NCBI RefSeq assembly: GCF_963675165.1
Contig: NC_087387.1
Location: 4,738,990-4,802,989 of the forward strand
Direction: 5' to 3'
Origin: Halichondria panicea
Taxonomy: Eukaryota > Porifera > Demospongiae > Suberitida > Halichondriidae
Length of the DNA: 64,000 bases
Shown here piece by piece: positions 6,293 through 51,019 of the stretch; the first letter of the stretch is position 1; each line of letters begins with the position of its first letter. Both the position numbers and the translations under genes were made by a program. Under the pieces are notes generated by a model. The model searched no databases. It was not told where the DNA came from and saw nothing but the letters and a program-made list of their open reading frames with translations.

Positions 6293-9200
6293 TTAATTGT
6301 TGCTCGGTGTGTCAGTGTTTTCAATAATGTAAGCGTGATTCTCCTCCCAGTACTCTTGCAGCTGTTCCACCAGCTGACTGAACGATGGTCTCTCCTCAGG
6401 CAGCAACCTCCAACACGGGGTCATCAGAAGTTCATATCTAAACAGAAGAGCAATCATTATAGCTACTATGTAATATGATGTCAATGGACTTACAGCATTT
6501 TTGGACATAGTGACGGTCTCTCTAATCTCTTGTTTTCAGTGGAGATGTGTTTGAGAATATCCTGGTTTCGTATCCCTGGATACGGGCCTCGTCCCAAAGA
6601 GAATACCTCCCAACAAGTCACACCAAATGACCACTAAGAATAGAAATATAGCAACCACAGTGTAGCTGACAAGTTCACTAACTCACCACATCAGTTTTCT
6701 TGTTGCTAATGGCATCATGGAGTGTCTCCGGAGCCATCCACTTGACTGGGATCTTGGCTCCCTGGTTGGCTCTGTAGTAGTCACTACTGTAGATGTCCCT
6801 GGCTAGGCCAAAGTCACCAACTTTCACAACTAGATTACTGTCAACCCTAAGGTAGAGTAATAAAGGTAAAATCAGTGGAAGATCAAGGAAAAATGAAAGG
6901 GAGGGTTCTAATCCAACGTGCGCGCAGCGCGATTTGGGGGGGTTTTACACCCATTTCCGGTCAAATGTTGTGAAGTAAAACTAGGGAAAATCTCATTCTT
7001 AGCCAGGTGAAGTCCCATAATAGACTAGCTTGCATAGAGCTAGCTAACTAGTACAAATAGTCAACTAGCTAGCCTAGAATATATATTAACCATTGACTCT
7101 TTGGCAGTTGATACATTAAAACAACAGGTACAATCATTGAAAATAGCTACAAAAATAATAAATAGCTAGCTGGTAGCTACATAAAATAGCTAGACTGAAC
7201 TGGGAGATCCATGGCACCCTGGGATCTCCCCCTGGATCCGGTAATTAAGTATAATTACCTCGTGTGTGCGCGCGCGTAGCAGGGGAAGAGTGATTGGTGT
7301 GTGCGGACACAAAAATGAGCTGTTTTAGTGAACTAGATACTTTCATGCTTTTATAACTGCTAACGAGAGACAGTGGTTGCATGAATAGGCTACTTACAAT
7401 TATAGTTGAAATTTGTAGTTATATACTGCCATAATTATGAATATTGGTTAATTGGTCCTAATTTGGGCACTGTTTCTTACACAATTTAGGAAGTTGACTG
7501 CAACTAGTTTTCCTTTCCTACTAGCTTTCATATGCACTTATCTTTTAGTTCTTGCAACTCCTGCGAAGGTTTGTTTGTGCAGTTTTAGTTATTTTGTTGG
7601 GTAAAATTCCGGCAATGATCTAATGCGCATGCTGACTGTTTAGTAGAAGTGACGACCCTTTTTTAGGTAAAATTCAGAATCCTTGTCCCGCTCAACTGAC
7701 TGTGCTACTGGAACCCCCTTTCAAGAATCCTATAGTAGATCCGCCACTGGTAGGTAACACAATGGTGGTACGCATGAGGGCACGGGCAATTACAAGGCTT
7801 GAAATGGTGTGTAAGTAGCTCACCACTACATGTGGAAACAGATATGTGTATACAGGCTAGCACGCTGTATAGAGGAGGTAGATTTTCAATTAAACTGTGC
7901 TAGATACTTTTACTGGAAATTGAAAGCTGGCTCTACTATAAATTGCACATACACATGTTATTATATACATGCACATTAGTATTGCACATGCTACAAATAA
8001 GTTAAAGGATACGAGTGTCTATACAGATGCAGTACGTTTTGTGGTGAGCCAATGTGGGGTAGGGAGAGACTCAGAACTATATACTGTTGGCATGGCGGAG
8101 AGCCACAGGTATGTAGGACACTATATAGACCTAGAAAAGCTCTAAATACTACCAAAAGGCTATGTATCGAATCCACACTATGTAAGAACACATACAGTAA
8201 TATTGCACATGCACGTGCACCAAGGAAGTTATATCTGCCAATGTATACAAACACTTTCCCCTCCTGCCATTAACCACTGTTTAGTGCTAACACACAAATT
8301 TAAACCCCTTTTTGAAACAAAGACCTTGTTGACCCAACAATATTGATCACTTACATGCAGTTCCTTGCTGCTAGATCTCTATGAACAAACTTCTCCTCAG
8401 CAAGATATTCCATACCATTGGCTACCTCCATACACATGCGTACCAGGGTAGAAACATTTAGATCCTGTACAGAGGGAATACAAGCGTAAATTGTTACAAA
8501 TTACGGAGTGGACAAAACAGGCTTTAGGAAACGTCAGCTTTGGAGCTACAATGCATATCACACTACTTTATAATTAAATTGAAAAACGCTTGAGGAAAGT
8601 AATTAAAGTTTTGGGGCTAGCTTCAAAAATTAAATCTGTAATTTGAAAGAACATTTATAAAATTAATTTGCAGACAACCACAAAATCATACAGAGCAGCA
8701 CGAGCTACAGTACGTTCCAGTTGTCTATTCAACCCTTTTACCTCAGATAGAATATCTACGTTGGTAACGTGAGTTCTCTTCTTCTTCAGAAAGTCCTTCA
8801 AACTTCCGTTTGCCATAAATGGGAGGATAATGTAGGGTACTCCATCAGGAGTGTCAAAACACACTCCAGTTAGTCCAAGAATGTTGGGGTGACTAAAATC
8901 CTTCATCAGCAAACTCTCGGCAAAGAACGATTCCAATTGATCTTTCGAACTCAAGTCTGTGTGGGAGAATAGATATTACTTAGAAATATAAAGAAAAAGA
9001 TGCAGCTCACTTTTGACTGTTTTGATAGCAATTTCTTCACATTTTGAGGAGTCTGACCTCCTCATTTCTCCTCGAAAAACCTTACCAAATGCACCTATAA
9101 AATACAAGCTAGCAAGTGCTATACATGCTTATTGCTCATTGTGGTCAGACATCAAAGGAGTTTCTTTGTATTTTATTTTTGTTATAATTTATTTGTATTT

Positions 9201-12200
9201 TATATTTTATGCTGTATAATACATTGTTGCATTTTGAGTGGGCAGATCAAAGGAAACACTGTGCCAATATCTGCCATATGGCACAGGTCAAGCCTTGAAC
9301 TGTGCCACTATCTAGATACTGGCATAGTATAGCTGAAGTTACCTAAAGCCCACCCTCCAGCCAGTAACCTGAAACGGTCCCTTTTATAGTATAACACTGT
9401 TAAACAGTCAGTGGTAGGCAGAAAACGTTTTTCATGCGTCTGGAGCATTCCACAGCCACCACAAGTAGTTGAAACTAGTTGTCCTATAAAAGGAGTGATG
9501 TGTACACGGAAAGGAATGCACAAGGCAAATCAGTTGTTACACAGCTCACTCGTGCGCACATGGGATATATTGGCTCAGTAGTGCCTTTGCCCTCGAGGCC
9601 TGCGGCCCTCGGGCCTAAGTCACTACTGAGCCAATATATCCCATGTGGCACTCGTGCATGTGTCACAACTATAACGTACACACGCCTGACTGTGGCGTTT
9701 CTAGGAATATCCGGCAGTAGGAGGGTGCTCAGGTCACGTTTAATTTTTTGGGACCTGCCTATGCACAGGAAACCACACCCACAGTTAATACGCATAACAA
9801 GAGACACACCTTGATTATAAAGAATAATCACCTCTACCATGCATTGTCTACAAAAGTCATATAATTATAGCTGTTATAAAATAATAGCAATCCTATACAG
9901 GTATATGTGACGATGTATGAATGCATGTGTAGAAGTAGTCTAGTTAGTCGATCATTAATTCTGTACGTGCATGGTGATGCCCATTCGAGTATTTTGATTA
10001 AATCGGCATGTACATAGATTATTATAATTATTCAGAATACCGACACAGTCATGTTTTGTGTTTTGTTTGTTACACAGTTCTACAGTTTTTGAAGTTGTCC
10101 GTTTCGATTGCAACGTTCAGTTCAGTAGTTGTATATCCTTTTGCTCATTGTGGTGATTGTACTGCTGTCTCTACTCCCTTCATACCACTGAAAGACCTCT
10201 CTGCTGAGCAGCTAGTGACAGGCTGAGTGCACAATATACTATCACCAAGACCACACATTTGTATCAAAAGCTTTGTTAATTGTCTTCGTTTACCTGGTAG
10301 AGTGTGATCAAGTTTTTCTAGGTTTCTGCTGCATGGTGATGGTTGCATGGGATATACATTTTGTAGCGTGCAGCTTTATAATAAGTCACAGTCTGAGTCA
10401 AAGTACGCATGCCCAGGAAACTTATTTCACCTCATGCATATCTGAAGGTGTGGTCTCCAATCAGATAAAAGCTCTTCTGCTAGCTCGCTTTCGATCTATC
10501 TCAGAGGAGGTACAAGTACCTTGATTTAGCAATTAGCCTCTGCAATAACGTTGAGCACCCTGAGCCCCTAGCTGGATATTACCCAGGATGTGGTCATTAT
10601 CCAGGATACAGCCTAAAGCACCACTGACCACCGTATTGGTTTAAAATACGAAGTATTTACATTTATACAAAAATTTGCACCAACGAATTTACCCGCTATA
10701 GTACAACTGATTTGTTGCATTCCTTAATATTATTGCATTCCTTTCCGTGTACACATCACTCCTTTTATAGGACAACTAGTTTGCAACTACTTGTGGTCGG
10801 CTGTGGAATGCACCAGACGCATGAAAAACGTTTTCTGTTTACCGCTGAATACTGCAATAGTGTTATACTATAAAAGGGACCGTTTCAGGTTACTGGGTGG
10901 GCTTTAGGTAACTTCAGCCATACTGTGCCAGTATCTAGATAGTGGCACAGTTCACCATTTGACCTGTGCCATATGGCAGATATTGGCACAGTGTTTCCTT
11001 TGATCTGCCAACTCAAAATGCAACAACATACCATACATTTAATACACTCAGTTGTTAAACACCTCTCCCCCCACACACACACACCTTGTACTCATACATG
11101 GTCACCCACCTTGTCCAATCACCTCTCCAACTGTTAGGGTAGTGTATGGCACAAGAATGGAAGAGAATATCTTTTCATAAGAAGATTTGTCAGCATCACT
11201 CAGTCGGATATCATCAGTGCCAGTGACAAACAACGCATTGTGACTAGGGCTACCTGTATAATTATGATTCACTCAATGCCACAAATATTTACAAAATGTT
11301 ACTCACAATGTTTTTTGTTGCATATCCTTTGGGAACCTCTTTGCATCCTGTAAACATTGCTATTGACACAGTTACAATCATTATATCGCAATCATCTCCT
11401 AATAATTATATAGGTCTATAAAAAGAGCAAGAAATACAAACTATAGTTACCTAGAAACTTTGCCGCGTTGTGATCTCTTTCGAACAAATGCAACCCAACC
11501 CCAAGAATCAGGAATACACCACCCCCCACAATGGCTCCAGCTATCACACTTACAGCCACTATCTCGGAGATGGCAGTCTCAGCTGAAGGATGAGAGCACA
11601 CAAGTGCATGCATGTAATACTAAACAGATGGACGCACTTAGAAACATGATGTATACTGCATACAATTATACTATCCAAGAGCAATAAAATGTTTCACAAA
11701 AATTTAAAATAGAGCAAATACTACAATTTCAAGTTTAAAAAACTCACGTAATTTAGTTGAATTGATACACAGAGAAGAGCGCACACGCACAAAATCTGGC
11801 AGATAGGAATTGACATCAGAACAATTGAACAGTGACATCATTATCGTTAATTCATTCACTGACGTAATCATTGAGAGACAAGATTGAATCGAAGCATATT
11901 CAACTTCGCAGACCTCCAAGCAGAGTGGTAGTGCGTCTCCTGTCTCAGGGTCACAAGGAGGAAGCGTGATGTAACAGCCGAGAGAGAAGAGAATGTCAGT
12001 ACAGTTCTGGTCCAAGTTGCCACTAGTAGCCACCTCTCCTAGCAACTGTTGGTAGGTTGTTGTGCTCCGACTGCGTAGAGGAATGTAGTGGGTGTACTGG
12101 GAGATGGCTGTAGAGTCACAGATGCTCGTGGAAGGAGTGGGCACACACCTATTGTAAAACCTTAAAGTTACTATTAAAAGACAGGTAGTGATTTTAGAGT

Positions 12201-13205
12201 TTTCAGATTTTTCTCTCTTTTTAGGGTATTAATTTAGCAGATTTGCAGAAAATTCATTAGCACAAAAAAATTGTCAGTTTAAGGTTGAATTGAAAGTTTT
12301 GAGTCAGGCTAGCTTGATGCTTAGCATACTCTCAAACAGAAGCAGTTGGAAGGTTGAGGCAATTAAAGCTATAAATGTGGTGAGTGAGTCAGCGCTATTT
12401 TTGTGTCAGCAGTTTAGTTGTACATAAGATACCAAGAGCTAGAAAGAAGCAGTACTGAAGATCCAGAGGACCACCTATATAAGCCAGACTCCTGTTCAAT
12501 CCGGGAAGAGAAGCCTCGATCATCTCCGTGGATATAGTAGTTTGGCTAGGAGAAACCTTAGTAGAGATTTTAATCGGAAACTAGTGCAGTGATCAATGTT
12601 GTACATACACATACACACATGTACATTTAACTATAATTATTGAGCCTGCTCAAAAACTTACTGATTTGGATTAGAGACAATTGAATCTGAATGGAGAAGA
12701 AATAATTATGATTTAATAATTCATTTTCTTACCTGTTTGTTGAGTTGTAAGCAGATCAGTGCATCTCTCGGAATCAATAAGAGAGTCCACCCGGTCGAAA
12801 TAATAATAAGTACTGGCATTTTTGCAGTTAAACTCCGTTAACAAGTTAAATAAAAGCTGAGCCTCTGGAACACCAGATGATAACAGAAATTCTTCTACAG
12901 ACTGTAATGCAGAGTCACACTTCCTTTCTTCAACTAGACGATTAAACGCCGAGCAACTATCACTGCAAACTGGCAGTAGAAGATCTGTAACATTGGTGCA
13001 AGGTGGTGTAGCTGCCAAGCATATTATGTGCTTGATTGCAGTTTCACAGTTCGGGTCGGGTGAGGGCACTCGTAAGAGAGAGAATGCAGCGGTGATACCA
13101 ACTGAAGATATAAAAACATTACCAGGAAGCTCCTGGGGATATTCATTCAGGGTGTTTCTGGCTGTTAAGGTGTAGCAGGCATGCTTCTCATCAAGTGGAG
13201 TACAA
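6293..13205 (-). CDS. Receptor tyrosine kinase A, two Fz-like domains
   Basis: Inferred exons, 5' to 3' on minus: 13205-12733, 12686-12662, 12148-11748, 11582-11451, 11347-11303 (or -11307), 11253-11110, 9094-9011, 8956-8742, 8464-8355, 6846-6687, 6633-6494, 6437-6293 (about 691 codons; leader unknown). Exons 1 and 3 each encode a 10-cysteine Frizzled-type domain. Exon 4 holds the membrane span ([13 protein letters not shown]). Kinase landmarks: GQGAFGKV loop, IAIKTVK lysine, FFAESL glutamate, [15 protein letters not shown], an IYSSDYYR activation loop, VKWMAPE and a final ERPSFSQLV. The kinase most resembles the Met/Axl group ([23 protein letters not shown]). A 19-bp deletion in exon 4 relative to B and C shifts the frame. 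Using a donor 4 nt further on (GTGA/GTAAC, exon 11347-11303) restores it, so A may still be functional. Confidence 0.8.
6880..7245. repeat. Degenerate hAT-like MITE in intron of gene A
   Basis: It shares the interior of the insertion at 38,045-38,431 (the 'gaaaaatgaaag' start, a 'cgcagcgcgaa' stretch, an 'aacaacaggtacaatcattga' block, and an end in 'ctggatccg'). The terminal repeats are mostly lost. It lies in the long intron between the catalytic-loop and activation-loop exons. Confidence 0.55.
7250..8350. other. Long intron of gene A
   Basis: This is intronic sequence between the HRD and DFG exons. Only the first part, near 7,255-7,400, has a match in the corresponding introns of B and C ('gtgtgtgcggacacaaaaatg'). 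I see no gene; the open frames at 7,991-8,273 are not supported by any motif. Confidence 0.5.
9540..9670. repeat. Hairpin in the hAT-derived element
   Basis: Two arms of about 40 bp (ATGGGATATATTGGCTCAGT and its complement) flank a GC-rich centre containing CTCGAGG. The same hairpin, with a shorter centre, is at 38,945-39,050. Confidence 0.75.
10145..10348 (-). pseudogene. hAT transposase C-terminal fragment
   Basis: The minus frame reads ...[19 protein letters not shown]..., the C-terminal dimerisation motif of hAT transposases (family pattern P-V-[ST]-S-[CAS]-x-x-E-R-x-F-S). No other transposase domain is found nearby, and the frame ends shortly after the motif. It is a relic inside the inverted-repeat element of gene A's intron. 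Confidence 0.75.
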
Positions 13206-15214
13206 CTGCAAGGATTGTGTATAAAGCATGCAGTTAAAATTATTATGCCAGATATCTATAAAGCACACTATACACGGTTGAATGGTTACTGTTAATACAG
13301 TCACACTATAAAAAAGCATTGTTCTGTGTTCTTGACCTTTGCTGCATATAGCATCTGTTGCGGTTTGAAAAGCTTACTATATCTAGATCTATATATATCC
13401 AGTGCAGCAAGCCAGTATACAATACCCTAGGAGTAGCCACGGAATATCAAATATCTGCAGTCTAGAATTGCTATTACATACCTACGGGTGTTCTTATAAT
13501 ATATTTTTCATAATTGATCAGTTCATATTTCACGCAAATGTCACAAAAGATATTGGCAATATGTACTACACTTGGCTTCGCCTCGAGCTACATGAGCTTC
13601 TCGAACTTCCGCTTGGCCAATAATATCCATAGAGCATGAGCGTAAAACAGTGCATTAACTGGTTTGTAGTTTTTAGCTTCTTGCAGCTACCAATAGCTAT
13701 CGGCTCTAGTATAGAGCTAACTACTAAGTAGAATAGCAACCTTCTACGAAAACATTTTGCTATTTCTGATTCTGGAGAGACTGCAATGGCCTTCAACGTA
13801 CACTGGTAAGCAAAACTAACCTTTATACTCGAGAATAAAGCCTTTAATTTGTTAGCAAGATAGCATTGCTAGAAGCTTATAGCATGGAGCAGTTGTAGCT
13901 ATTATAAAATTCTGTGGCTTAAAAAAATGACCACAAACCGTGCTCTAACTACCCCAGCCATGCTCTAACTTAGTCTACCAAACTGTTCCAAAAATGCCAA
14001 CCACAGAATAATAGAGCACGGTCTGTGGTTCCTAGTCTATGGCATTTGTTAGCATAGTTTTTCCTTTGATCTTTGTACAAAAAAACTACAAAATTATATA
14101 AACTCTATAGGTAAGATCCAGCTAGAGGTTCGACACAACACTACTGCATGACTATACTATAGTTTGTTCACGCAACAGCTATTTTTGCAGTCATTATATG
14201 AAATTAACAAACAGTCACAAACTGTTTCAACACTATAATTTATTATATAGCTATATATGATTATGGGTTCCACTCAACGTCATGTATATATAGACATGCA
14301 CAGTCTAACAATTGCAAGTTAAAGAATTTCACAGTATCTGGCTGTTGGCCAATAATAAGTAGTAGATGCAGTACATGTATATACACAACACACAATTCAT
14401 GCACAAAGTGAGTGCGTGTGCATCAGTTGTTTGCCATGCTGTGAAGCTTACACATTATTATGAGGTGCCGTTTGTCTTAAAACTGTGTAAAAGTGAGACA
14501 TATATATATCATTCATTCTATGTGGGTAGCTAAGTCAATAGCGAGGAATTAAAGTGGGTGTTGGCGACGCCTCTCAGTCAATCCAACGTGTGCAAAATTG
14601 ACACGTGGTAAAGTTGAGTGGGTGTGATCAATCCACTTAAGATACTGCAACCTGATTGGAGCTGGTGGAATTCCACCAGCAGAACAAAACCATGGATAGG
14701 CTTGGGTCCCAACCTCCTTCCGGGCAACAGTAGAGGGCAGAGACACCAGACTAGGCATGTACGTGCAGCTAGCTAGCTCATAATGTGCAAAAAACAAGAC
14801 TTTAAATGTTAGTAGTACTATATCAATATAGACCTATACAAAGTTGTTAGATCTATCCTAGAACAGACATCAAGCGTTTAAGATGAGACTGTTTCCTCTG
14901 AACACCAGAACACATCTATACTTCCAGATCAGTCAGGCCCCATTCTATCTTGTGGCAGAGTGCCTTCTGTGATCTGTAACTGTAGATGGAGCTGTGTCAT
15001 TTTCATAGAAAGTACCGGCCAGCATAACTCTCTTAGATGGGCGCTTGCACGGTTTAGTATAGCACATGATCAAATATCTGCCCACCCCTTGTTTAGCCTA
15101 AATGAAGCTATCAAAACAGATAGGCGGTTCGACGGTTAACTACAGTAACAGTATATACATGCATACATTCAAGCCTCGAGGGCAAGGTTTGCACATACAT
15201 GCACACTAGTATCT

Positions 15215-23198: not shown

Positions 23199-23698
23199 TA
23201 GCCTCGTTCCCAGGCCGATCCGTCTCCAATTGAACGCTAGGTCGACTCCTAGGCCTGGTATTGATTGTATCTGGGCGTGGTTGGAATTCGCTCAAACGAG
23301 CGAATTCCTAAGCGATTTTAGTGTTTATATTAGCAAGCTAGCTAGCACCTGTGACTGGACAAGGGGAGCGCTGGTCCTACCAAGCTTGTAGTCCATCAAA
23401 AAATGGTAGCAACTGGTAGCAGAGAGACTTTCCATACCCTGTTGGGAACCACAGAAACACTTCCCTTCCCTCAGACAGGAGCTTGAGGGCCTGGGCCTGT
23501 TCCAAGTAAGGCCTTCCAGAACTGAAGTCTCCATAGTCGAGTCACAGGTAGCTAGCTAGCTTGCTTAGTAATAATTTATAATTTAGAAGGAATTCGCTCG
23601 TTTGAGCGAATTCCAACCACGCCCAGATACAATCAATACCAGGCCTAGGAGTCGACCTAGCGTTCAATTGGAGACGGGTCGGCCTGGGAACGAGGCTA
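23199..23698. repeat. 500-bp element with ~115-bp terminal inverted repeats (unit B)
   Basis: Both ends begin TAGCCTCGTTCCCAGGC and run as an inverted repeat through 'gtcgactcctaggcctgg' to 'gaattcgctc'. It lies in the intron between the second Fz exon and the membrane exon of B. C has it at the same site (34,234-34,729); A does not, giving an empty site near 11,665. The flanks share GTAC. Confidence 0.85.
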
Positions 23699-24382
23699 GT
23701 ACTGTCCAAGAGCAATAAAATGTATAAAAAAATTTTTAAAACAGCATATACTACAATTTTTAAGCTTACAAAACTCACGCAATTTACTTGAATTGAAACA
23801 CAGAGAAGAGTTCACAAGCACAAAGTCTGGCAGGTAGGAATTGACATCAGAACAATTAAACAGTGACATCATGATCGTTAATTCATTCACTGACGTGATC
23901 ATTGAGAGACAAGATTGAATCGAAGCATATTCAACATCACAAGTTTCCAAGCAGAATGGTAGTGCATCTCCTGTCTCAGGGTCACAAGGAGGAAACATGA
24001 TGTAACAGCCGAGAGAGAGGATAATGTCCGTACAGTTCTTGTCAAAGTTGCTACTAGCAACCACCTCTCCTAGCAACCGTTGGTAAGCGGTTATGTTCCG
24101 GCTGCGTAGAGGAATGTAGTGGGTGTACTGGGAGATGGCTGTAGAGTCACAGATGCTCGTGGAAGGAGCGGGCACACACCTATTGTAAAACCTTAAAAGT
24201 TACTATTATGCATGGAGACGAGTATAGTATAATTTTAGCATTCTAAGATTTTTTCTGTTTTTCTTAGGACAGTACTCATTTCGGCGGATTTGCAGTAAAT
24301 TCATTAGCACAATGATTATTTGTATGAGTTTTAAGGTTGAATGGAAAGTTTAGAGTCAGTTTTAGCTTGCTTAGTATACTCT

Positions 24383-24963
24383 CAGAGGAGGTTGGAAGGA
24401 TGCTGAGACCACGTGCGAAAAGAGCAATTAAAGCTATAAAATATGTGCTGAGTTGGTGCTATTTTGTGTATAATATAGTCGTACACAGATATGTTATAAT
24501 AACATAAAACATCTCAAATAAAATACATCATTTGAAATTTAATGTAGAAATGACATAAATTTCTGTCATTTTAACACTAAAATACTATGATGCATCCCAT
24601 ATAACATAATTATGTGTTTTTGCGGTGTAGTTTAGTTGAACATAAGATATCAAGTGGTAGAAAGAAGCAGTAAAAGATCCATAGAATAACCTACAAGCCA
24701 GATCTTCTGTTCAATCCAGGAAGAGAAGCCTCATCTCCATTATCTAGTAGTTTGGCTAGGAGAAACCTTAGTAGATATTTAAATCGGAAGCTGGTGTATA
24801 GTGATCAATGTTGTACAGTTTGGAGAAGAAGTCAAACTGCTCATTTCCTTGATGGCCATGCGCAGTAGCTATCTCTGAAACTGCTGACTAGACACAAAAA
24901 TAGCGCCATAACTTTTAATTGTTCTTTTCACACGTGATCTCAACATCCTTCCAACCTCCTCTG
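24383..24963. repeat. MITE with CAGAGGAGGTTGG ends (unit B)
   Basis: Termini CAGAGGAGGTTGGAAGGATG and its complement, followed inward by 'cacgtg' and 'gcaattaaag', bracket 581 bp in the intron between the two Fz exons. The interior contains half of the TTATAATAACATAAAACATC palindrome. Copies: 35,420-36,009 (unit C), an eroded piece near 12,350 (unit A) and a relative at 47,774-48,187. Confidence 0.75.
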
Positions 24964-27348
24964 CTCTCAGAAGTATACATTTTCATTAGAAAAAGAGATT
25001 AGCACGTACGGACATAATTTACTCAAATTAGTATAGTTACCTGTTTATAATAGTAAATAGTAACAGGTGTAACACAGTCATATGTATGTTAGTGAGCCTG
25101 CTCAAAAACTTACTGATTTGGATTAGAGATAACTGAATCTGAATGGAGAAGAAATAAATGATTTAATAATTCAGAAAAATTAATTTTATTACTTTTTTGT
25201 TGAGGCGTAAGCAGATCAGTACATCTCTCGGAATCAATACGTGAGTCCACCCGGTCGAAATAATAGTAAGTACTGGCATTTTTGCAGTTAAACTCTGCTA
25301 ACAAGTTAAATAAAAGCTGAGCTTCTGGGAGAGCAGATGATAACAGAAACTCTTCTACAGACTCTAATATAGAGTTGCACTTCCCTTCTTCAACTAGACG
25401 ATTAAACGCCGAGCAACTATCACTGCAAACTGGCAGTAGAAGATCTGTAACATTGGTGCAAGGTGGTGTAGCTGCCAAGCATATTATGTGCTTGATTGCA
25501 GTTTCACAGTTAGGGTCGGGTGGGGGCACTCGTAAGAGAGAGAATGCAGTGGTGATACCAACTGAAGATATTAAAACATTACCAGGAAGCACCTGAGGGT
25601 ATCTGTCCAGGGTGTTTCTGGCTGTTAGACGGTAGCAGGCATGCTCCTCATCAAGTGGAGTACACCTGCAACGATATCGATTGTAAAACTTTATAAATAA
25701 GCATGCAGTTAAAATTTATTTTGGCAAATATCTAATATACAGGGTTGAATGTTTTATAAAAAGCATTTTATTCGTAGCTTACCTTAGCCCATTAAAAACA
25801 CACAATCATAATTATACTGAAAAGATCTGAGATGCTTTTGTACTTGTATATATCTAGTTGGCTAACTAGAGTAGCTAGCCAGAAGTTTAATAGCTAGCCA
25901 GAGCTCAGAGGAGGAATGCCTGCATGGGTGTCAATAGGGTGTTCAATGAAAGATCAAATATCTCAGTGTTTTGGGTTCTTAATTGCATGACTTTGCTGCA
26001 TATAGCAGCTAGCGCTTTTGTTGTTTATTTACCTGCTCGGAAAGCTTACTATACCTATAGATCTATCCAGTATACAGCAAGCCAGTATTATACATCAACA
26101 TTAATACCCTACTAGCCATCGATATAATTTGGTAGTACAAAACACTACTGTTGGTATGGATGTCAAATGGTTGCTAGGGTAGGACGGGTGTGATTGTACC
26201 TTTCAAAGAAAGAAGGTCGGATTGCAAGCTTATTTTGGATTCGTTCTAGCCGCCACTATAATTATAGTGGCAGCCTAATCAAATTGTAGTATCTTTCAAG
26301 TGGTTGGTGCATGTGCATGTGTACTATGCTGTGGTTTAGCCACGGCATCAAGTCAGTTAACACCCACTTGAGAATAATAATATTCATAGCAGTGTTAATA
26401 ATAGCAGAACAGATCCATGATAAACTTGCAACCCTATACCTCCTTTCTTAACGGAAGGTCGGGCTACACTCAACTATGCTCAGTAGGAAAACAAACTGAC
26501 CTCTGCACCTATTAAGAAGGTGTGTATAGCTTCCACCCTATATACTTCGAGGGAAAGAGATTATTGTTAGTTAACTAATAGGGAAGTATACCCAACGACA
26601 GAGGACAGTACGGCATCACTAGTTTATGCTGTGGACCTATACAATTCTCTAGATTATCTCCTGAAAGCCTGGGGAAGAATGACAAAAAGATGTGACAGTC
26701 TTTTTATAGTTTTGCTGTTCTTATAAATTTTTCATTCAATGTTGAATTCAGTTTCAGTTCACGCAAATGTCACAAAATTAATGGGTAACATAACTATAAT
26801 AATAACTCTATAGGTGAAATCCAGAGAGAGGTTTTTTTGCTGTTTTCAATCCAACCCTATACTATTAGCACTACGTATACTAATAATTGCTAGTTTGTTC
26901 ACACAACAGCTATTATAGCTATTTTCAGTTTTGTATGTTATGCAGTCATAAACAAACAGTCATAATTATGAAAAACAAACAAACAGTCCACAAAGTGTTT
27001 CAACACTAACCATGCAGATATGGGTTCCACTCAACGTCACATGTATATAGACACCGGCCGTCCATGGATGCATGTGATTTAGAAGCCCTTAGGCACTTGT
27101 AGTACCCTGCTCGGGATATACTAAAGCTGTGTCTTTGGGCTTCTAAATCCCTCTGACACCTCAAAAACAGTGTTTGAGTATTATAATTATAACAAAAACT
27201 TGCTTGCTAGACAATGCATGCATGCATCCGGATCTTTGCTCTTTTTATCTTTTTATTACAAATTTTGCAACCACAATGCATACATGCAAGTCAACTTACC
27301 ATTGCGCTGATACTTGGTTTATCCACAACCCTATATGAAATGATTAAA

Positions 27349-34400: not shown

Positions 34401-36714
34401 GGAGCGCTGGTCCTACCAAGCTTGTAGTCCATCAAAAAATGGTAGCAACTGGTAGCAAAGAGACACTTTCCATACCCTGTTGGGAACCACACAAACACTT
34501 CCCTTCCCTCAGACAGGAGCTTGAGGGCCTGGGCCTGTTCCGAGTAAGGCCTTCCAGAACTGAAGTCTCCATAGTTGAGTCACAGGTAGCTAGCTAGCTT
34601 GCTTAGTAATAATTTATAAGGAATTCGCTCGTTTGAGCAAATTCCAACCACGCCCAGATACAATCAATACCAGGCCTAGGAGTCGACCTAGCGTTCAATT
34701 GGAGACGGGTCGGCCTGGGAACGAGGCTAGTACTGTCCAAGAGCAATAAAATGTATAAAAAAATTTAAAAACAGCATATACTACAATTTTTAAGCTTACA
34801 AAACTCACGCAATTTACTTGAATTGAAACACAGAGAAGAGTTCACAAGCACAAAGTCTGGCAGGTAGGAATTGACATCAGAACAATTAAACAGTGACATC
34901 ATGATTGTTAATTCATTCACTGACGTGATCATTGAGAGACAAGATTGAATCGAAGCATATTCAACATCACAAGTTTCCAAGCAGAATTGTAGTGCATCTC
35001 CTGTCTCAGGGTCACAAGGAGGAAACATGATGTAACAGCCGAGAGAGAGGACAATGTCCGTACAGTTCTGGTCAAAGTTGCCACTAGCAACCACCTCTCT
35101 TAGCAACTGCTGGTAAGCGGTTATGTTCCGGCTGCGTAGAGGAATGTAGTGGGTGTACTGGGAGATGGCTGTAGAGTCACAGATGCTCGTGGAAGGAGCG
35201 GGCACACACCTATTGTAAAACCTTAAAAGTTACTATGGAGACGAGTATAGTATAATTTTAGCATTCTAAGATTTTTTTCTGTTTTTCTTAGGACAGTACT
35301 CATTTCGGCGGATTTGCAGTAAATTCATTAGCACAATGATTATTTGTATGAGTTTTAAGGTTGAATGAAAGTTTGGAGTCAGGCTACCTTTAGCTTGCTT
35401 AGTATACTCTCAATTAAAACAGAGGAGGTTGGAAGGATGCTGAGACCACGTGCGAAAAGAGCAATTAAAGCTATAAAATATGTGCTGAGTTGGTGCTATT
35501 TTGTGTATAATATAGTCGTACACAGTGAAAACAGATATGTTATAATAACATAAAACATCTCAAATAAAATACATCATTTGAAATTTAATGTAGAAATGAC
35601 ATAAATTTCTGTCATTTTAACACTAAAATACGATGATGCATCCATATAACATAATTATGTGTTTTTGCGGTGTAGTTTAGTTGTACATAAGATATCAAGT
35701 GGTAGAAAGAAGCAGTAAAAGATCCATAGGATAACCTACAAGCCAGATCTTCTGTTCAATCCAGGAAGAGAAGCCTCATCTCCATTATCTAGTAGTTTGG
35801 CTAGGAGAAACCTTAGTAGAGATTTTAAATAGGAAGCTGGTGTAGTGATCAATGTTGTACAGTTTGGAGAAGAAGTCAAACTGCTCATTTTCTTAATGGC
35901 CATGCGCAGTATAGCTATCTCTGAAACTGCTGACTAGACACAAAAATAGCGCCATAACTTTTAATTGTTCTTTTCACACGTGATCTCAACATCCTTCCAA
36001 CCTCCTCTGCTCTCAAAAGTATATATACATTTTCATTAGAAAAAGAGATTAGCACGTACGGACATAATTTACTCAAATTAGTATAGTTACCTGTTTATAA
36101 TAGTAAATAGTAACAGGTGTAACACAGTCATATGTATGTTAGTGAGCCTGCTCAAAAACTTACTGATTTGGATTAGAGATAACTGAATCTGAATGGAGAA
36201 GAAATAAATGATTTAATAATTCAGAAAAATTAATTTTATTACTTTTTTGTTGAGGCGTAAGCAGATTAGTACATCTCTCGGAATCAATAAGAGAGTCCAC
36301 CCGGTCGAAATAATAATAAGTACTGGCATTTTTGCAGTTAAACTCTGCTAACAAGTTAAATAAAAGCTGAGCTTCTGGGAGACCAGATGATAACAGAAAC
36401 TGTTCTGAAGACTCTAATATAGAGTTGCACTTCCCTTCTTCAACTAGACGATTAAACGCCGAGCAACTATCACTGCAAACTGGCAGTAGAAGATCTGTAA
36501 CATTGGTGCAAGGTGGTGTAGCTGCCAAGCATATTAAGTGCTTGATTGCAGTTTCACAGTTAGGGTCGGGTGGGGGCACTCGTAAGAGAGAGAATGCAGT
36601 GGTGATACCAATTGAAGTTATTAAAACATTACCAGGAAGCACCTGAGGGTATCTGTCCAGGGTGTTTCTGGCTGTTAGAGGGAGCAGGCATGCTGCTCCT
36701 CAAGTGGAGTACAT
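31405..36714 (-). CDS. Receptor tyrosine kinase C, two Fz-like domains
   Basis: Exons: 36714-36243, 36188-36164 (or one exon 36714-36164), 35209-34809, 34145-34001, 33890-33850, 33797-33636, 33306-33223, 33175-32961, 32694-32585, 31955-31796, 31746-31607, 31549-31405. The kinase is intact by eye: [76 protein letters not shown]. The membrane exon ([14 protein letters not shown]...RRRSQR) and the second 10-Cys Fz domain are intact. One base is missing near 36,680 compared with A and B, about 11 codons into the first Fz exon, giving a stop (TAA) in the expected frame. Either the copy is 5'-broken, uses another start or acceptor, or the base is an assembly error. Confidence 0.8.
32171..32467 (+). 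other. Intronic open frame on opposite strand (unit C)
   Basis: The duplicate of the frame at 21,130-21,450, 98 codons with a few substitutions (RPCPRV to RPRPRV, KGN to KRN) and an earlier stop. Unrecognised and probably not a gene. Confidence 0.25.
34234..34729. repeat. ~500-bp element with long terminal inverted repeats (unit C)
   Basis: Orthologue of the element at 23,199-23,698, same intron and flanks. The arms have a few substitutions (gagcaaattcc against gagcgaattcc). Confidence 0.85.
35420..36009. repeat. MITE with CAGAGGAGGTTGG ends (unit C)
   Basis: Orthologue of 24,383-24,963 in the inter-Fz intron. Confidence 0.75.
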
Positions 36715-41388: not shown

Positions 41389-41673
41389 AGATGTTTTTAA
41401 TATATCTGATGATAGATCTTGATTAGTGCTCTCTAGTGGTGGTCTTGGATTTCCAGTGCCTTGCTTGGTTCTCTAGATATGAAGGCCGAAAGTAGCTGGG
41501 CGTGGTCTGGCGAGTGGGTAAAGGGTCCTGTAACCCTAGGACTTTACCCACGCGCCAGACCACGCCCAGCTACTTTCGGCCTTCATATCTAGAGAACCAA
41601 GCAAGGCACTGGAAATCCAAGACCACTAGAGAGCACTAATCAAGATCTATCATCAGATATATTAAAAACATCT
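41389..41673. repeat. Near-perfect palindrome, ~135-bp arms
   Basis: Arms run from 'agatgtttttaatatatctg' through 'ggccgaaagtagctggg' to a short 'gggtcctgtaaccctagg' centre and back. It lies exactly at the right end of the RTK array and at the left end of the 115-bp tandem repeat. Confidence 0.9.
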
Positions 41674-42275
41674 ACCGTGTACCCTAAATGCGCGGGCGTA
41701 TGTATTTCTTGGTGTGTATTGTGTGTGCGCAAGTGCATTTTTTATTTACTGCACACACAATACACACATAGAAAAATATACACTTACACGTACCGTGTAC
41801 CCTAGAGTGCACGGGCGTATGTATTTCTTGGTGTGTATTGTGTGTGCGCAAGTGCATTTTTTATTTACTGCACACACAATACACACATAGAAAATTATAC
41901 ACTTACCGTGTACCCTAGAGTGCGCGGGCGTATGTATTTCTTGGTGTGTATTGTGTGTGCGCAAGTGCATTTTTTATTTACTGCACACACAATACACACA
42001 TAGAAAAATATACACTTACCGTGTGCCCTAGAGTGCGCGGGCATATGTATTTCTTGGTGTGTATTGTGTGTGCGCAAGTGCATTTTTTATTTACTGCAAA
42101 CACAATACACACATAGAAAATTATACACTTACACGTACCGTGTACCCTAAATGCGCGGGCGTATGTATTTCTTGGTGTGTATTGTGTGTGCGCAAGTGCA
42201 TTTTTTATTTACTGCACACACAATACACACATAGAAAATTATACACTTACCGTATACCCTAGAGTGCGCGGGTAC
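41673..42275. repeat. Tandem repeat, 112-119 bp units, ending at ribozyme
   Basis: Units begin TACCGTGTACCCTA at 41,673, 41,791, 41,904, 42,017, 42,136 and 42,248; the sixth is cut short and runs into the hammerhead. Each unit holds a self-complementary stretch ('gtgtgtattgtgtgtg' with 'cacacacaatacacac'). Confidence 0.92.
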
Positions 42276-42288
42276 TGAGTGCGTGTGC

Positions 42289-42351
42289 AGTCCACTGATG
42301 AGTCCCGGCACAATAAACATTAGGGACGAAAAGGTCTAGACCTTCTGGGCT
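42289..42351 (+). ncRNA. Hammerhead ribozyme, type I, minimal stem III
   Basis: Core CTGATGA (42,295-42,301) and GAAA (42,328-42,331). Stem II GTCCC/GGGAC (42,302-06 with 42,323-27). Stem III AAGGT/ACCTT (42,331-35 with 42,340-44) with a CTAG loop. Stem I AGTCCA/TGGGCT (42,289-94 with 42,346-51). Cleavage is predicted after C42,345. All invariant core bases are present, and stem I is the open end. Confidence 0.88.
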
Positions 42352-46761: not shown

Positions 46762-47414
46762 GAGAGAGTACATGTAAGTCAATATACAGTACCCCCTTAG
46801 ATTATAGGCACGTAGTTCACATTTAAAGGTCGTCAGTTGAATCCGAAGGTCGGGTGGAGATGCTGGCGTGATAATATCGGTTTACGCGGGCACAGTCTTT
46901 GTGGCTTAACCTGTTGACCCATACTTGCATTTTTTTTGTCATCTTGTTGTGGGGGCTGGCTATGCGTTTAGGCCACTCTTTTTATTTGTTGAACACACAA
47001 TCAGCATGAGCTTGCCGTCACACAAACACGAAGTTTAACCCCACTCTCTTTTGAGTAGCCCCACAAAATTAGCGCCACTGTTTTTAGCTTGTCGCCACAC
47101 AAATACAAAGTTTAGCCCCCCTACTCTTAGCATACTTTTAGAACAAATAGTATGCCATACAATGGAGGATTTCAAGTTGGTGGCAGAAGTTAAAAGTTGA
47201 AGTGCACTCAGCCATGACCCCTCCCCCCCACACACACACATGTACACACACACCGTGCACTGTGCACAGGAGGATAGTCAGGGTCAATTAAAAGGATTCC
47301 TGATAACTTATTTGCATTCCGCTCTTTCTTTCTTACCTCTAACCACTAGCGAGGGGGTTGGAGATAATTAAGTCCGCTGGAAGCAGATTTGAATTGACCT
47401 TGAATATCCTCATT

Positions 47415-47417
<3 letters not shown>

Positions 47418-47452
<35 letters not shown>
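47418..47452. repeat. (CA)n microsatellite
   Basis: About 17 CA units. Confidence 0.95.
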
Positions 47453-47453
<1 letters not shown>

Positions 47454-47510
47454 CTGACAAACATTTGGTTCATATTAGCTCAGCCAACAAGTCACAAGTA
47501 AGTATCCTTT

Positions 47511-47760
47511 GTCTTCGACTTAATTCGTGGATTTGCAAAATAATGTTCACAGTTTTGCTTACTTGGAATGTCATTGCAGCCTTTTCAGAAGAGCACGTTT
47601 GTTTACGGAGTGTCAATTGGTTGATCGTTACCCATTCTTTGAGTTTGCATGCGCAGTAAAATGTATGTTCGTCATGTACATTTAAAAAAGCTATTAGTTG
47701 CTTTATGTTATATGTACGTAGCTTTGGCATCTCCACCGAGGCATCAGCACCTGAGGTGCT
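47511..47760 (+). repeat. Dispersed repeat, third copy
   Basis: Matches 16,670-16,965 and, inverted, 1-240. Confidence 0.6.
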
Positions 47761-47773
47761 AAGTATACTTAGA

Positions 47774-48187
47774 CAGAGGAGGTTGGCCACGCGTCATCAA
47801 TTTTGTGACGTATGTGATGTCTCTGCTCAGGTTACCATGGATACCGAGCAACTGTAAAAAGAATGTATGGCTACTGTTACTTTGCTAGCTTATAACTGTT
47901 GTCTAGTTGGACCAGGATTAGTTAGACTATAGGGTAGAGTATAGCTCAGCGGTGCTGCATGTAGCTTGTACTGTACTGGCTGACTATATGCACTGATAAC
48001 TCGCCAGAATAGAGGGGATCGCTGGGGATCGGGTTGGTTAATGATAGCCAGAGAGATACATAAATGTTGCTTTCAGTCTCCAATGACCGTGCAACACCAG
48101 CTAGAAGTTTACATGGAAAACCCTTGTCAATTTCTATGCCAGCTCAGCAAAAAAAGTGGTGCACGTGATCGTGTCCAACCTCCTCTG
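47774..48187. repeat. MITE with CAGAGGAGGTTGG ends, third copy
   Basis: Ends CAGAGGAGGTTGGCCACG and CGTGTCCAACCTCCTCTG; borders the ribozyme dimer on its left. Confidence 0.65.
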
Positions 48188-48508
48188 ATGCTTAGATCAT
48201 GTTTGTCATAAATACTGCAATTTGATTGGCTAAAGGAATTAAGTGTTCTATCCAACTTAGAAAATCATGTATATACTTCACTTAGAAAATCATGTAGAGA
48301 TAAGAACATTCAAATCTGATTGGCTAAATACCCATGGTTGCTATGATCTAAAATGCTTAGACGTACACTGTTTAGGAAGTTTCCACGTGATTTAGAAGTC
48401 CTCAGGGCACTGCGTTCGAGATACTACGACCAGCCCTTTGGGCTTCTAAATCATGCAGAAACTTCCTAAACAGTGTCTAACTATTGCATAATCATACCAT
48501 GCAACTGC

Positions 48509-48576
48509 ACTGTGCTGATGAGGCCCAATAAGGCCGAAACCATCTGACCATAATTATAAGGCAGATGGTCCACAGT
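48509..48576 (+). ncRNA. Hammerhead ribozyme, type I, copy 1
   Basis: Core CTGATGA (48,515-48,521) and GAAA (48,536-48,539). Stem I ACTGTG/CACAGT (48,509-14 with 48,571-76). Stem II GGCC/GGCC (48,522-25 with 48,532-35) with a CAATAA loop. Stem III of eight pairs, ACCATCTG/CAGATGGT (48,539-46 with 48,562-69), loop 15 nt. Predicted cleavage is after C48,570 in the classic GTC triplet. Every conserved core position is met. Confidence 0.93.
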
Positions 48577-49326
48577 TGTTAACATACGATTGGCATATCA
48601 ATTTGAAATGCAAATTATTTACCTCTACTATAGTGTTGAGAGGCATTAGCAAGCTATAGCGCACGCTTGCAACACTCATGTAAGTTATGTGCATGACCAT
48701 TATATAATTTGACAACATAATTGCAAAACAACAAGCGAGAGCTAGCTAGTGACAAGCTACTGAGTGGGAGTGATAAGTGAGCATCAATAACAACGCAGAA
48801 ATACAATCAATTAGTGTTTGTTTTCAAGAGCGTTTGTAATTAATGTATAGAATTAGCTAGTGTATGTTTTGTTTTCCCCTTTTCAAAGGACGTTCATTCG
48901 GCCGGTTTCCAAGACACCTTTGAGGTACGGCCTTCATCTCGCTTTTTTTTTTCGAGGTATCGCCAGTAGCCATATAACCCCGCTCACATCACCATCATGT
49001 TTGCCATAAATACTGCAATTTGATTGGCTAAAGGAATTAAGTGTTCTATCCAACTTAGAAAATCATGTATATACTTACTTAGAAAATCATGTATATACTT
49101 CACTTAGAAAATCATGTAGAGATAAGAACATTCAAATCTGATTGGCTAAATACTCATGGTTGCTATGATCTAAAATGCTTAGACACTGTTTAGGAAGTTT
49201 CCACGTGATTTAGAAGTCCTCAGGGCACTGCGTTCGAGATACTACGACCAGCCCTTTGGGCTTCTAAATCATGCAGAAACTTCCTAAACAGTGTCTAACT
49301 ATTGCATAATCATACCATGCAACTGC

Positions 49327-49394
49327 ACTGTGCTGATGAGGCCCAATAAGGCCGAAACCATCTGACCATAATTATAAGGCAGATGGTCCACAGT
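49327..49394 (+). ncRNA. Hammerhead ribozyme, type I, copy 2
   Basis: Identical ribozyme in the second unit: stem I 49,327-32 with 49,389-94, CTGATGA 49,333-49,339, predicted cleavage after C49,388. The ribozyme is unchanged while its surroundings carry several indels. Confidence 0.93.
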
Positions 49395-49853
49395 TGTTAA
49401 CATACATATCCTATTGTAAAAACAACCCATTTATAATGAAAAACTCAATTTGAAATGCAAATTATTTATATACCTCTACTATAGTGTTGAGAGGCATTAG
49501 CAAGCTATAGCGCACGCTTGCACTCATTTTGTAAGTTATGTGCATGACCATTATATAATTGACAACATAATTGCAAAACAACAAGCGAGAGCTAGTGACA
49601 AGCTACTGAGTGGGAGTGATAAGTGAGCATCAATAACAACGCAGGAATACAATCAATTAGTGTTTGTTTTCAAGAACGTTTGTAATTAATGTATAGAATT
49701 AGTGTATGTTTTGTGTTTTCCCCTTTTCAAAAGGACGTTCATTCGTTTCATTCGGCCGGTTTCCAAGACACCTTTGAGGTACGGCCTTCATCTCGCTTTT
49801 TTTTCTCGAGGTATCGCCAGTAGCCATATAACCCCGCTCACATCACCACGGGA

Positions 49854-51019
49854 CACTGCAGGAAATAAACACACAGTCACATTGCATTCTCATAATCGTC
49901 TTCACTCACTGTATTAACGCTCAAAAGAAATGTTTAAGAACAATGAAGTTGCCCATTGTTTTGTTGGTGTGTTCGTTAACTGTAAGGTCTCTTGCACCAG
50001 CTAGTGTGCTCATAGAGACACAAACGGAAGGAATACTTTTAGGCTACACATACATGTTCAAGTGCAGCTACATTCTCACTAGCCTCGATCGCAGTCCCTC
50101 TCACTAGAGGAAGGCCTGGTAACCAACCATGCACCGTTCACGTTCAATTTTTTCGAATTCTTTACCCAACGAAAATTAACTGCTACAGTAGTAAAGTTTT
50201 TAGTACTTATGGTTACCAACGTGGTTGATTAAACTTAGCCTCTACACAGGCTCTCCTTTTTCTGTTCTTTATCACAATCGTTCAATAAGATAAAATACTG
50301 TCTTAATCGTTCAATGAGATAAAATACGGTAGTTAATTAGAGGAATAAAGAAAGAAATAGACGTAGAGTTAGGAAAAGGAGAGCCTGTATCGGGAAGTCG
50401 CGTGAGGGTAGAAGGGTGGTAGAAGGGTGAAAATGAGCGTGGGCATGCTGAGCTAGAGATGTTGGACTGCCCACACAGATATCTATGACTAATAAAACTT
50501 TGCCTGCAGCATGCAAGCTGGACATGGACTTGGAACTGGAAGTTTGCAAGCACTATAGCTAGCTATATACCTTAGGCTTAGCTAGATGATCTACTAGTCT
50601 AGATTGTGTGTTCAGATTCTATCAGACTATTACCTTTTCTTGTGTCTTTCTACATGCTAGTATAGATCAAGAATAGCTTAAGTTAGTCATCATTATCATA
50701 TATAGCAGGTAGCTACTGCCACCAGAGCTGGCCACGCTGGTTCTCTGATCTGACTTGCAGCACAGCTTGGTGGTTGTCTCAGTACAGTCTTATTAACTCT
50801 GAATGCGTGGGAGAATACCTTACGTCACGATTGTGGGCTACATATCGCCCACGTTCATAAAAATCCTTGTGGATCACGCGATTTCCCAAACCAGGCCTTA
50901 CTTTTTCTTAACTGTACGCCCATTTCTTTCTTTGCTGCCTCACTAGCACTATGTCTTTCATGGATGAACAGTGACAACAGCAAGAAAAAGTAAGGCCAGG
51001 GAACGAGGCTAGATTAAAC
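49854..51019. other. Unannotated stretch right of ribozyme dimer
   Basis: No convincing gene. It contains a 'ggccttactttttctt' inverted pair (50,897-50,996) and single ends of the TAGCCTCG-type element (50,083 and 51,000). Confidence 0.4.

Follow-up and report, generated by a model that had tools for sequence, protein, structure and literature searches.

A tandem pair of type I hammerhead ribozymes in the sponge Halichondria panicea: probable DNA duplication of a transposon-fragment composite bearing a Helentron tail relic

Results

Two Identical Hammerhead Ribozymes in a Head-to-Tail Duplication

The window analyzed here, 64,000 nucleotides of the Halichondria panicea genome (assembly GCF_963675165.1, contig NC_087387.1), harbors a head-to-tail duplication on its plus strand, with repeat unit 1 at 48196-48993, repeat unit 2 at 48994-49848 and a junction at which ..CACATCACC meets ATCATG.. 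(48993/48994). A dimer of this kind had been proposed from an earlier reading of the DNA and proved real. Type I hammerhead ribozymes are characterized by the invariant core CUGANGA..GAAA..UH and three helices, with stem I open, and each unit contains one sequence with exactly this core, three helices and an open stem I. Ribozyme 1 extends from stem I to stem I over 48509-48576 (+) and consists of stem I (48509-48514/48571-48576), the core CTGATGA at 48515, stem II (GGCC/GGCC, followed by GAAA), a stem III of 7 bp and C17 at 48570, after which cleavage is predicted. Ribozyme 2 (49327-49394, +) is identical in sequence and shifted by +818, such that its C17, and the predicted cleavage site, is found at 49388. 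For both copies the hammerhead fold is predicted (-25.3 kcal/mol, z -3.6). A hammerhead scan of both window strands yielded three matches, i.e., the pair and a further one at 42295, and the same scan on 60 sequences simulated from it with a second-order Markov model yielded none. The coordinates, the fold and the scan against simulated windows thus bear out two identical canonical type I hammerheads, with cleavage sites predicted after C48570 and C49388 at a head-to-tail distance of 818 nt, as had been claimed originally. A chance origin of the pair is rejected on the basis of the simulated windows and of the genome-wide pattern search (17 matches vs. 0 in the reversed control). With full core and helices retained, both ribozymes have probably kept the ability to cleave.

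The comparison with Rfam covariance models gave a divided result. Over the whole window no family reached its gathering score, and the type I model RF00163 listed the pair neither in a 2.2-kb scan nor genome-wide. The nearest Rfam model, Hammerhead_HH9 (RF02275), matched both copies over its whole length at E ~1e-5 (1.3e-5 and 8.5e-6 in the 2.2-kb scan), but at 32.1 and 32.7 bits these matches stay below its gathering score of 52, and the stem III region is longer in the window ribozymes. Our own model R1 matches both window ribozymes by construction. Outside the dimer, a separate motif at 42289-42351 (+), directly after a tandem array at ~41673-42272, resembles a hammerhead and has a stem III that is short and palindromic (AGGTCTAGACCT); when 351 bases were scanned with RF00163, it scored 20.4 bits (gathering score 34) at E 0.018. 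Elsewhere in the window, pairs of similar frames on the minus strand are repeated at 11704-13255, 23696-25715 and 34765-36699 with a spacing of 11-12 kb; three of the six paired frames were scanned and have weak similarity to the Fz domain, below the Pfam cut-off.

The identity of the two ribozymes had originally been regarded as conspicuous given diverged surroundings. It is unremarkable because, with the 79-nt ribozyme excluded, the units differ at just 8 of 703 aligned bases; at this divergence, the probability of no difference among 79 positions is 0.40, and that of none among 223, the longest identical block, is 0.08. Selection on the ribozyme is not shown by this comparison of units within the dimer. 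Likewise, the "37-bp insert" ascribed to unit 2 is mostly ancestral sequence missing from unit 1, since sister copies of the dimer keep it in both units, where they read ACATGATTGG(C/T)ATCCTATTGT... In agreement with the earlier statement that no protein is encoded, the unit contains no evident coding frame.

The Dimer Occurs at Three Loci With Common Flanks

Three loci with the dimer were detected in the genome, namely in the window, at C2:8.61 Mb and at C11:5.04 Mb (C11b), and all three loci have their flanks in common at 96-99% identity. Window positions 47596-50235 match the C2 locus at 96% over 2.7 kb and the C11b locus in two stretches (0.9 and 1.8 kb, 96-97%), and further flank segments of 2.3-3.4 kb are 97-99% identical. 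On the right side, the match to C2 is shown up to 50235, about 0.39 kb past the dimer, and the window continues from there with a 0.8-kb high-copy repeat. This dispersed repeat (50236-51011, ~776 bp), which has copies of up to 100% identity in other places, is inserted beside the window dimer and is missing at that point in the C11b sister copy. No independent insertion of the dimer was seen among the three loci, and the shared flanks therefore indicate a single origin of the dimer, followed by copying of the dimer together with the adjoining sequence. The predicted cleavage sites are spaced by 818, 840 and 841 nt at the three loci; the length of a potential circle is not a conserved trait. 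In addition, a diverged paralogue (C6, 9.5 kb examined) carries the MITE described below and a single damaged hammerhead that has lost part of stem II; it could be a reduced copy and not the ancestral single-hammerhead state.

The Repeat Unit Is a Patchwork of Mobile Element Fragments

Three components make up the unit: a dispersed MITE, a hammerhead-bearing fragment of a Helentron 3' tail and a portion of a further dispersed repeat. The MITE (~283 bp) forms the left part of unit 1 (48195-48477), is flanked by TA and contains a long internal hairpin (48365-48476, -66.9 kcal/mol); its second copy makes up the start of unit 2 (48994 to about 49295). It is present at no fewer than 39 further places in the genome, a lower bound with 40 of 688 first-look candidates scored, and matches elsewhere mostly span the first 288 bases of the unit and then stop. 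A single other copy (L008), in which TA is found on both sides, served to define the ends of the MITE, and by this reading the junction (48993/48994) is offset from the MITE end by 1-2 nt toward the interior of the MITE.

The Helentron tail relic is split in two. Its first part (47214-47512, +) is colinear with stretches within positions 8091-8640 of the Helentron-type element C1a, and its remainder, which bears hammerhead 1, lies at 48481-48597 (+), with the unit 2 copy at 49299 to about 49415. Between the two parts lie the MITE and a nested sequence of ~680 bp (47513-48192) that consists partly of dispersed repeats. Across the right edge of unit 2, and thus extending into the flank, a segment of another dispersed repeat is situated at 49521-50061 (+), and the right edge of the duplication (48993/49848) falls within this repeat. 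Five of its relatives (C8:4.50, C13:3.17, C13:2.40, C1:9.04 and C2:5.68 Mb) are located downstream of frames for Helitron helicases, at a distance of 1.2-1.4 kb and in opposite orientation.

A Helentron 3' Tail as the Probable Carrier of the Hammerhead

C1a, located on the minus strand at C1:13.26 Mb, is an autonomous-looking Helentron-type element with a stop-free frame of a stated 1707 aa and with Helitron_like_N, OTU, PIF1 helicase and Exo_endo_phos domains. It resembles Helentrons/Helitron2 elements as described in the available text of PMC5148889 in encoding Rep-like, OTU, PIF1 helicase and endonuclease domains, and it differs from them by a hammerhead near its apparent 3' edge. This hammerhead is encoded on the coding strand, and its cleavage site follows the end of the frame by 761 nt (coordinates 2275 and 3036 of L015). 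A related, decayed copy (C13) contains a hammerhead at the equivalent position. Seven other Helentron-type tails adjoining helicase genes (L038-L044, 2.5-2.7 kb each) gave no hammerhead, either by scan or with model R1 at E up to 1.

The first part of the window relic aligns with the C1a tail in two pieces, with 35/224 and 13/87 mismatches, partly in CA repeat. After ~970 bp of nested repeats in the window, the hammerhead region again matches C1a, up to ACATGATTGGCATCCTATTGT, as read in the C2 sister because each window unit has lost part of it. Together, the window and its sister copy comprise three pieces colinear with C1a downstream of the Helentron coding region, and judging from this colinearity the window ribozyme is carried by what remains of a Helentron 3' tail. 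C1a, C13, the window and C6 have tail sequence in common upstream of the ribozyme.

The position of the 3' edge, which in a Helentron would be marked by defined termini (ATIR, TT target), is less clear. The match between C1a and the window ends 36 nt after the cleavage site, and homology among C1a, C6 and the dimer stops near CCTATTGT, with C13 diverging earlier. Under lenient scoring, matches to C1a reach ~92 nt (C13), 57 nt (family B) and 81 nt (C3) past the cleavage site, the latter running into a 403-bp repeat and probably being spurious. A sharp Helentron 3' edge at the ribozyme is thus uncertain.

The Ribozyme Family and Its Other Carriers

A core pattern allowing up to three mismatches matched 17 times in the 131-Mb genome, 16 times exactly, and not once in the reversed control. 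The 16 exact cores comprise six in the three dimer loci, five in a transposon family termed family B, two on C3 and one each in C1a, C13 and C1b.

Family B (L025-L029) comprises DNA transposons whose terminal inverted repeats start with AACACATTCACTGTTAAAAGTTCC. Its five copies contain the hammerhead ~660 nt inside one end, and for four of them the second end was found 8.6-11.2 kb away. Apparent 4-bp target duplications read TCTT, ATAG and ATAT, and TGTC with a one-base offset. The family is considered young, with pairwise matches of 98.3-99.97% identity among the five copies, and four frames scanned from L026 had no Pfam match. C1b shares ~1.1 kb with family B at 90-91% and represents an older relative. 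On C3, two ribozymes are 531 nt apart, and 403 nt of this distance belong to another dispersed repeat. The pair was therefore once ~128 nt apart, and its interpretation as a 531-nt retrozyme is discarded, the spacer being mostly repeat.

In seven aligned sequences (six distinct), 2 of 22 base pairs are altered on both sides, and outer stem I beyond the internal loop CTRC/TGT is paired in 26 of 36 cells in the six distinct sequences, as compared to a permutation mean of 19.8 (fraction 0.0055), a count that is depressed by the decayed C3b copy. These data lend modest support to helices maintained by compensatory changes. No clear signal of constraint on the ribozyme emerged from comparing C1a with C13 (1/74 differences in the ribozyme vs. 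40/915 outside) or family B with C1b (2/74 vs. 18/971). The window ribozyme, read in the C2 sister, differs from that of C1a at 3/74 positions, counted by hand on the alignment, as opposed to 35/224 upstream (P ~0.002), a single comparison in which the upstream part includes CA repeats.

A looser pattern, CTGANGAGN{9,16}CGAAAC, gave 41 matches and is by itself uninformative because the reversed control gave 49. From these matches we kept the 16 family members, one at C9 with stems and three type III-like motifs on C10; 20 others were set aside by eye, without a stem test. One match, at C1:8147813 (L033), fails the stem scan, yet scores 24.4 bits with model R1. The C9 motif (C9:2565689; L011, 1501-1558), a lone type I hammerhead, has a stem III of 8 bp and differs in its sequence context; it reaches 26.3 bits with RF00163 (cut-off 34) and 44.5 bits with R1. 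The three related C10 motifs lie on the reverse strand within 70 kb (C10:2.05-2.11 Mb; L030, L031 and L032, cores at 1910, 1922 and 1961) and have stem III open and stem I closed; visual inspection suggests a possible overlap with the end of a coding exon, and the motifs may hence be accidental. Over the genome, RF00163 gave two matches, both below its cut-off, and such weak matches mean little because sub-threshold matches also occur in 11 of 14 control genomes.

Penelope-Like Elements in the Genome

A partner Penelope element had been suggested for the pair and was sought genome-wide via the GIY-YIG domain, a search that a copy without endonuclease would escape. Matches were obtained at 19 places, none of them on C11, the contig of the window. 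The one locus among them that was examined (L045, C12:6449500-6457500) encodes reverse transcriptase and GIY-YIG domains in an 803-aa frame and lacks a hammerhead by scan and by Rfam. It forms a head-to-tail tandem with a 4536-bp step, and because the tandem copies are 99.6% identical, this element has probably been active recently.

Discussion

We consider it probable (roughly 0.78) that the pair arose by ordinary local DNA duplication, when a composite of transposon fragments was doubled in tandem, with the hammerhead inherited from a Helentron tail. In the lineage leading to the window, a Helentron-type 3' tail with a type I hammerhead would have been invaded by other repeats, including the MITE just upstream of the ribozyme, and the segment from the left end of the MITE across the ribozyme into the neighboring repeat would then have been duplicated head to tail, once. 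Because the breakpoint is located immediately inside the MITE end, the duplication was probably caused by repair of a break at that end; a MITE- or replication-driven process could also have placed its edge there. The locus, i.e., dimer and flanks, would later have been copied to two other places. If the window is transcribed across both ribozymes, hammerhead chemistry makes plausible the release of an 818-nt RNA whose ends would be a 5'-OH and a 2',3'-cyclic phosphate, and a circular RNA could still form, whatever the origin of the dimer.

A different account concerns the origin of the ribozyme itself and is compatible with DNA duplication of the dimer: the ribozyme may itself be mobile, as a small unit of ~80-130 nt (conceivably a retrozyme of very short length), and may have reached the Helentron, the transposon with terminal inverted repeats and other places in separate events, its carriers being accidental. 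We regard this as possible, at clearly less than even odds. It would accommodate the conserved island of ~80-150 nt in otherwise unrelated contexts and the former ~128-nt spacing at C3, which resembles a short tandem dimer. Around the single copies, however, an unsystematic look revealed neither a target-site duplication nor a free unit, and the tail upstream of the ribozyme that C1a, C13, the window and C6 share implies inheritance there and not new insertion.

The hammerhead might instead be a working part of the Helentron, situated ~36-92 nt from its 3' edge and trimming transposon or read-through transcripts, with a fold that may double as a terminal hairpin in single-stranded DNA. This idea, which we deem unlikely, derives from the resemblance of the ribozyme position to that of the terminal hairpins of Helitron2-type elements, which are ~30-40 bp from the 3' terminus in the fungal FoHeli1/2 according to the available text of PMC5148889. 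The unremarkable fold of the ribozyme as a terminal DNA hairpin (z -1.8 and -1.1) and the seven Helentron-type tails without the motif count against it. Any role of the ribozyme in the Helentron is putative, as are transcription and cleavage at the pair. In the literature searched, as far as its text was available, we came across no Helitron reported to contain a hammerhead, and a search for hammerhead ribozymes in Amphimedon returned nothing related.

The original prediction of an undescribed long retrozyme or a solo pair of Penelope-like terminal repeats (pLTRs) is unsupported in view of the shared flanks at all three loci, the patchwork with the MITE, the duplication edge at the MITE end and the contig free of GIY-YIG matches. 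A long animal retrozyme would be a non-autonomous retroelement spread via hammerhead-processed circular RNA and integrated as a dimer. Canonical type I hammerheads in direct tandem without an evident coding frame are just what the metazoan non-LTR retrozymes display, and animal retrozymes do make such dimers, as stated in the consulted parts of Cervera and de la Pena (2020; PMC7229834). According to the same parts, however, their RNAs measure ~170-400 nt and their repeats ~150-450 bp. The window unit (818-841 nt) is about twice as long or more, is a composite of other transposons and occurs at three loci with common flanks, so that the dimer displays neither the size range nor the independent insertions of retrozymes. 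Moreover, 16 exact cores genome-wide compare with more than 6000 type I motifs in a coral (PMC7229834, in the same parts). Such an origin of the pair is very improbable.

Least credible is a solo pLTR pair, for although Penelope elements are present in the genome and, according to the accessible portions of the literature, Penelope-like elements/Terminons likewise carry hammerheads near mobile-element ends (PMC6431247), in a minimal form in Penelope (PMC7229834), the window ribozyme is canonical with its 7-bp stem III, the tail that bears it matches a Helentron, the flanking element being a Helentron relic and no retroelement, and the Penelope search delivered neither a match on the contig of the window nor a hammerhead at the locus examined.

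A tandem pair of hammerheads need therefore not be a retrozyme, and duplicated transposon debris of the kind favored here can yield one. The literature cited, in its available parts, ties genomic hammerheads of animals and plants mostly to retroelements. The family described here, unlike those, sits in the tail of an autonomous-looking Helentron and in a young DNA transposon with terminal inverted repeats. Should the hammerhead be a working part of the Helentron, its presence in the latter transposon would represent a capture, and hammerheads would serve class II elements too and not retroelements alone. The ribozyme in the tail of a rolling-circle transposon is a more interesting point than the dimer and provides the lead to follow.
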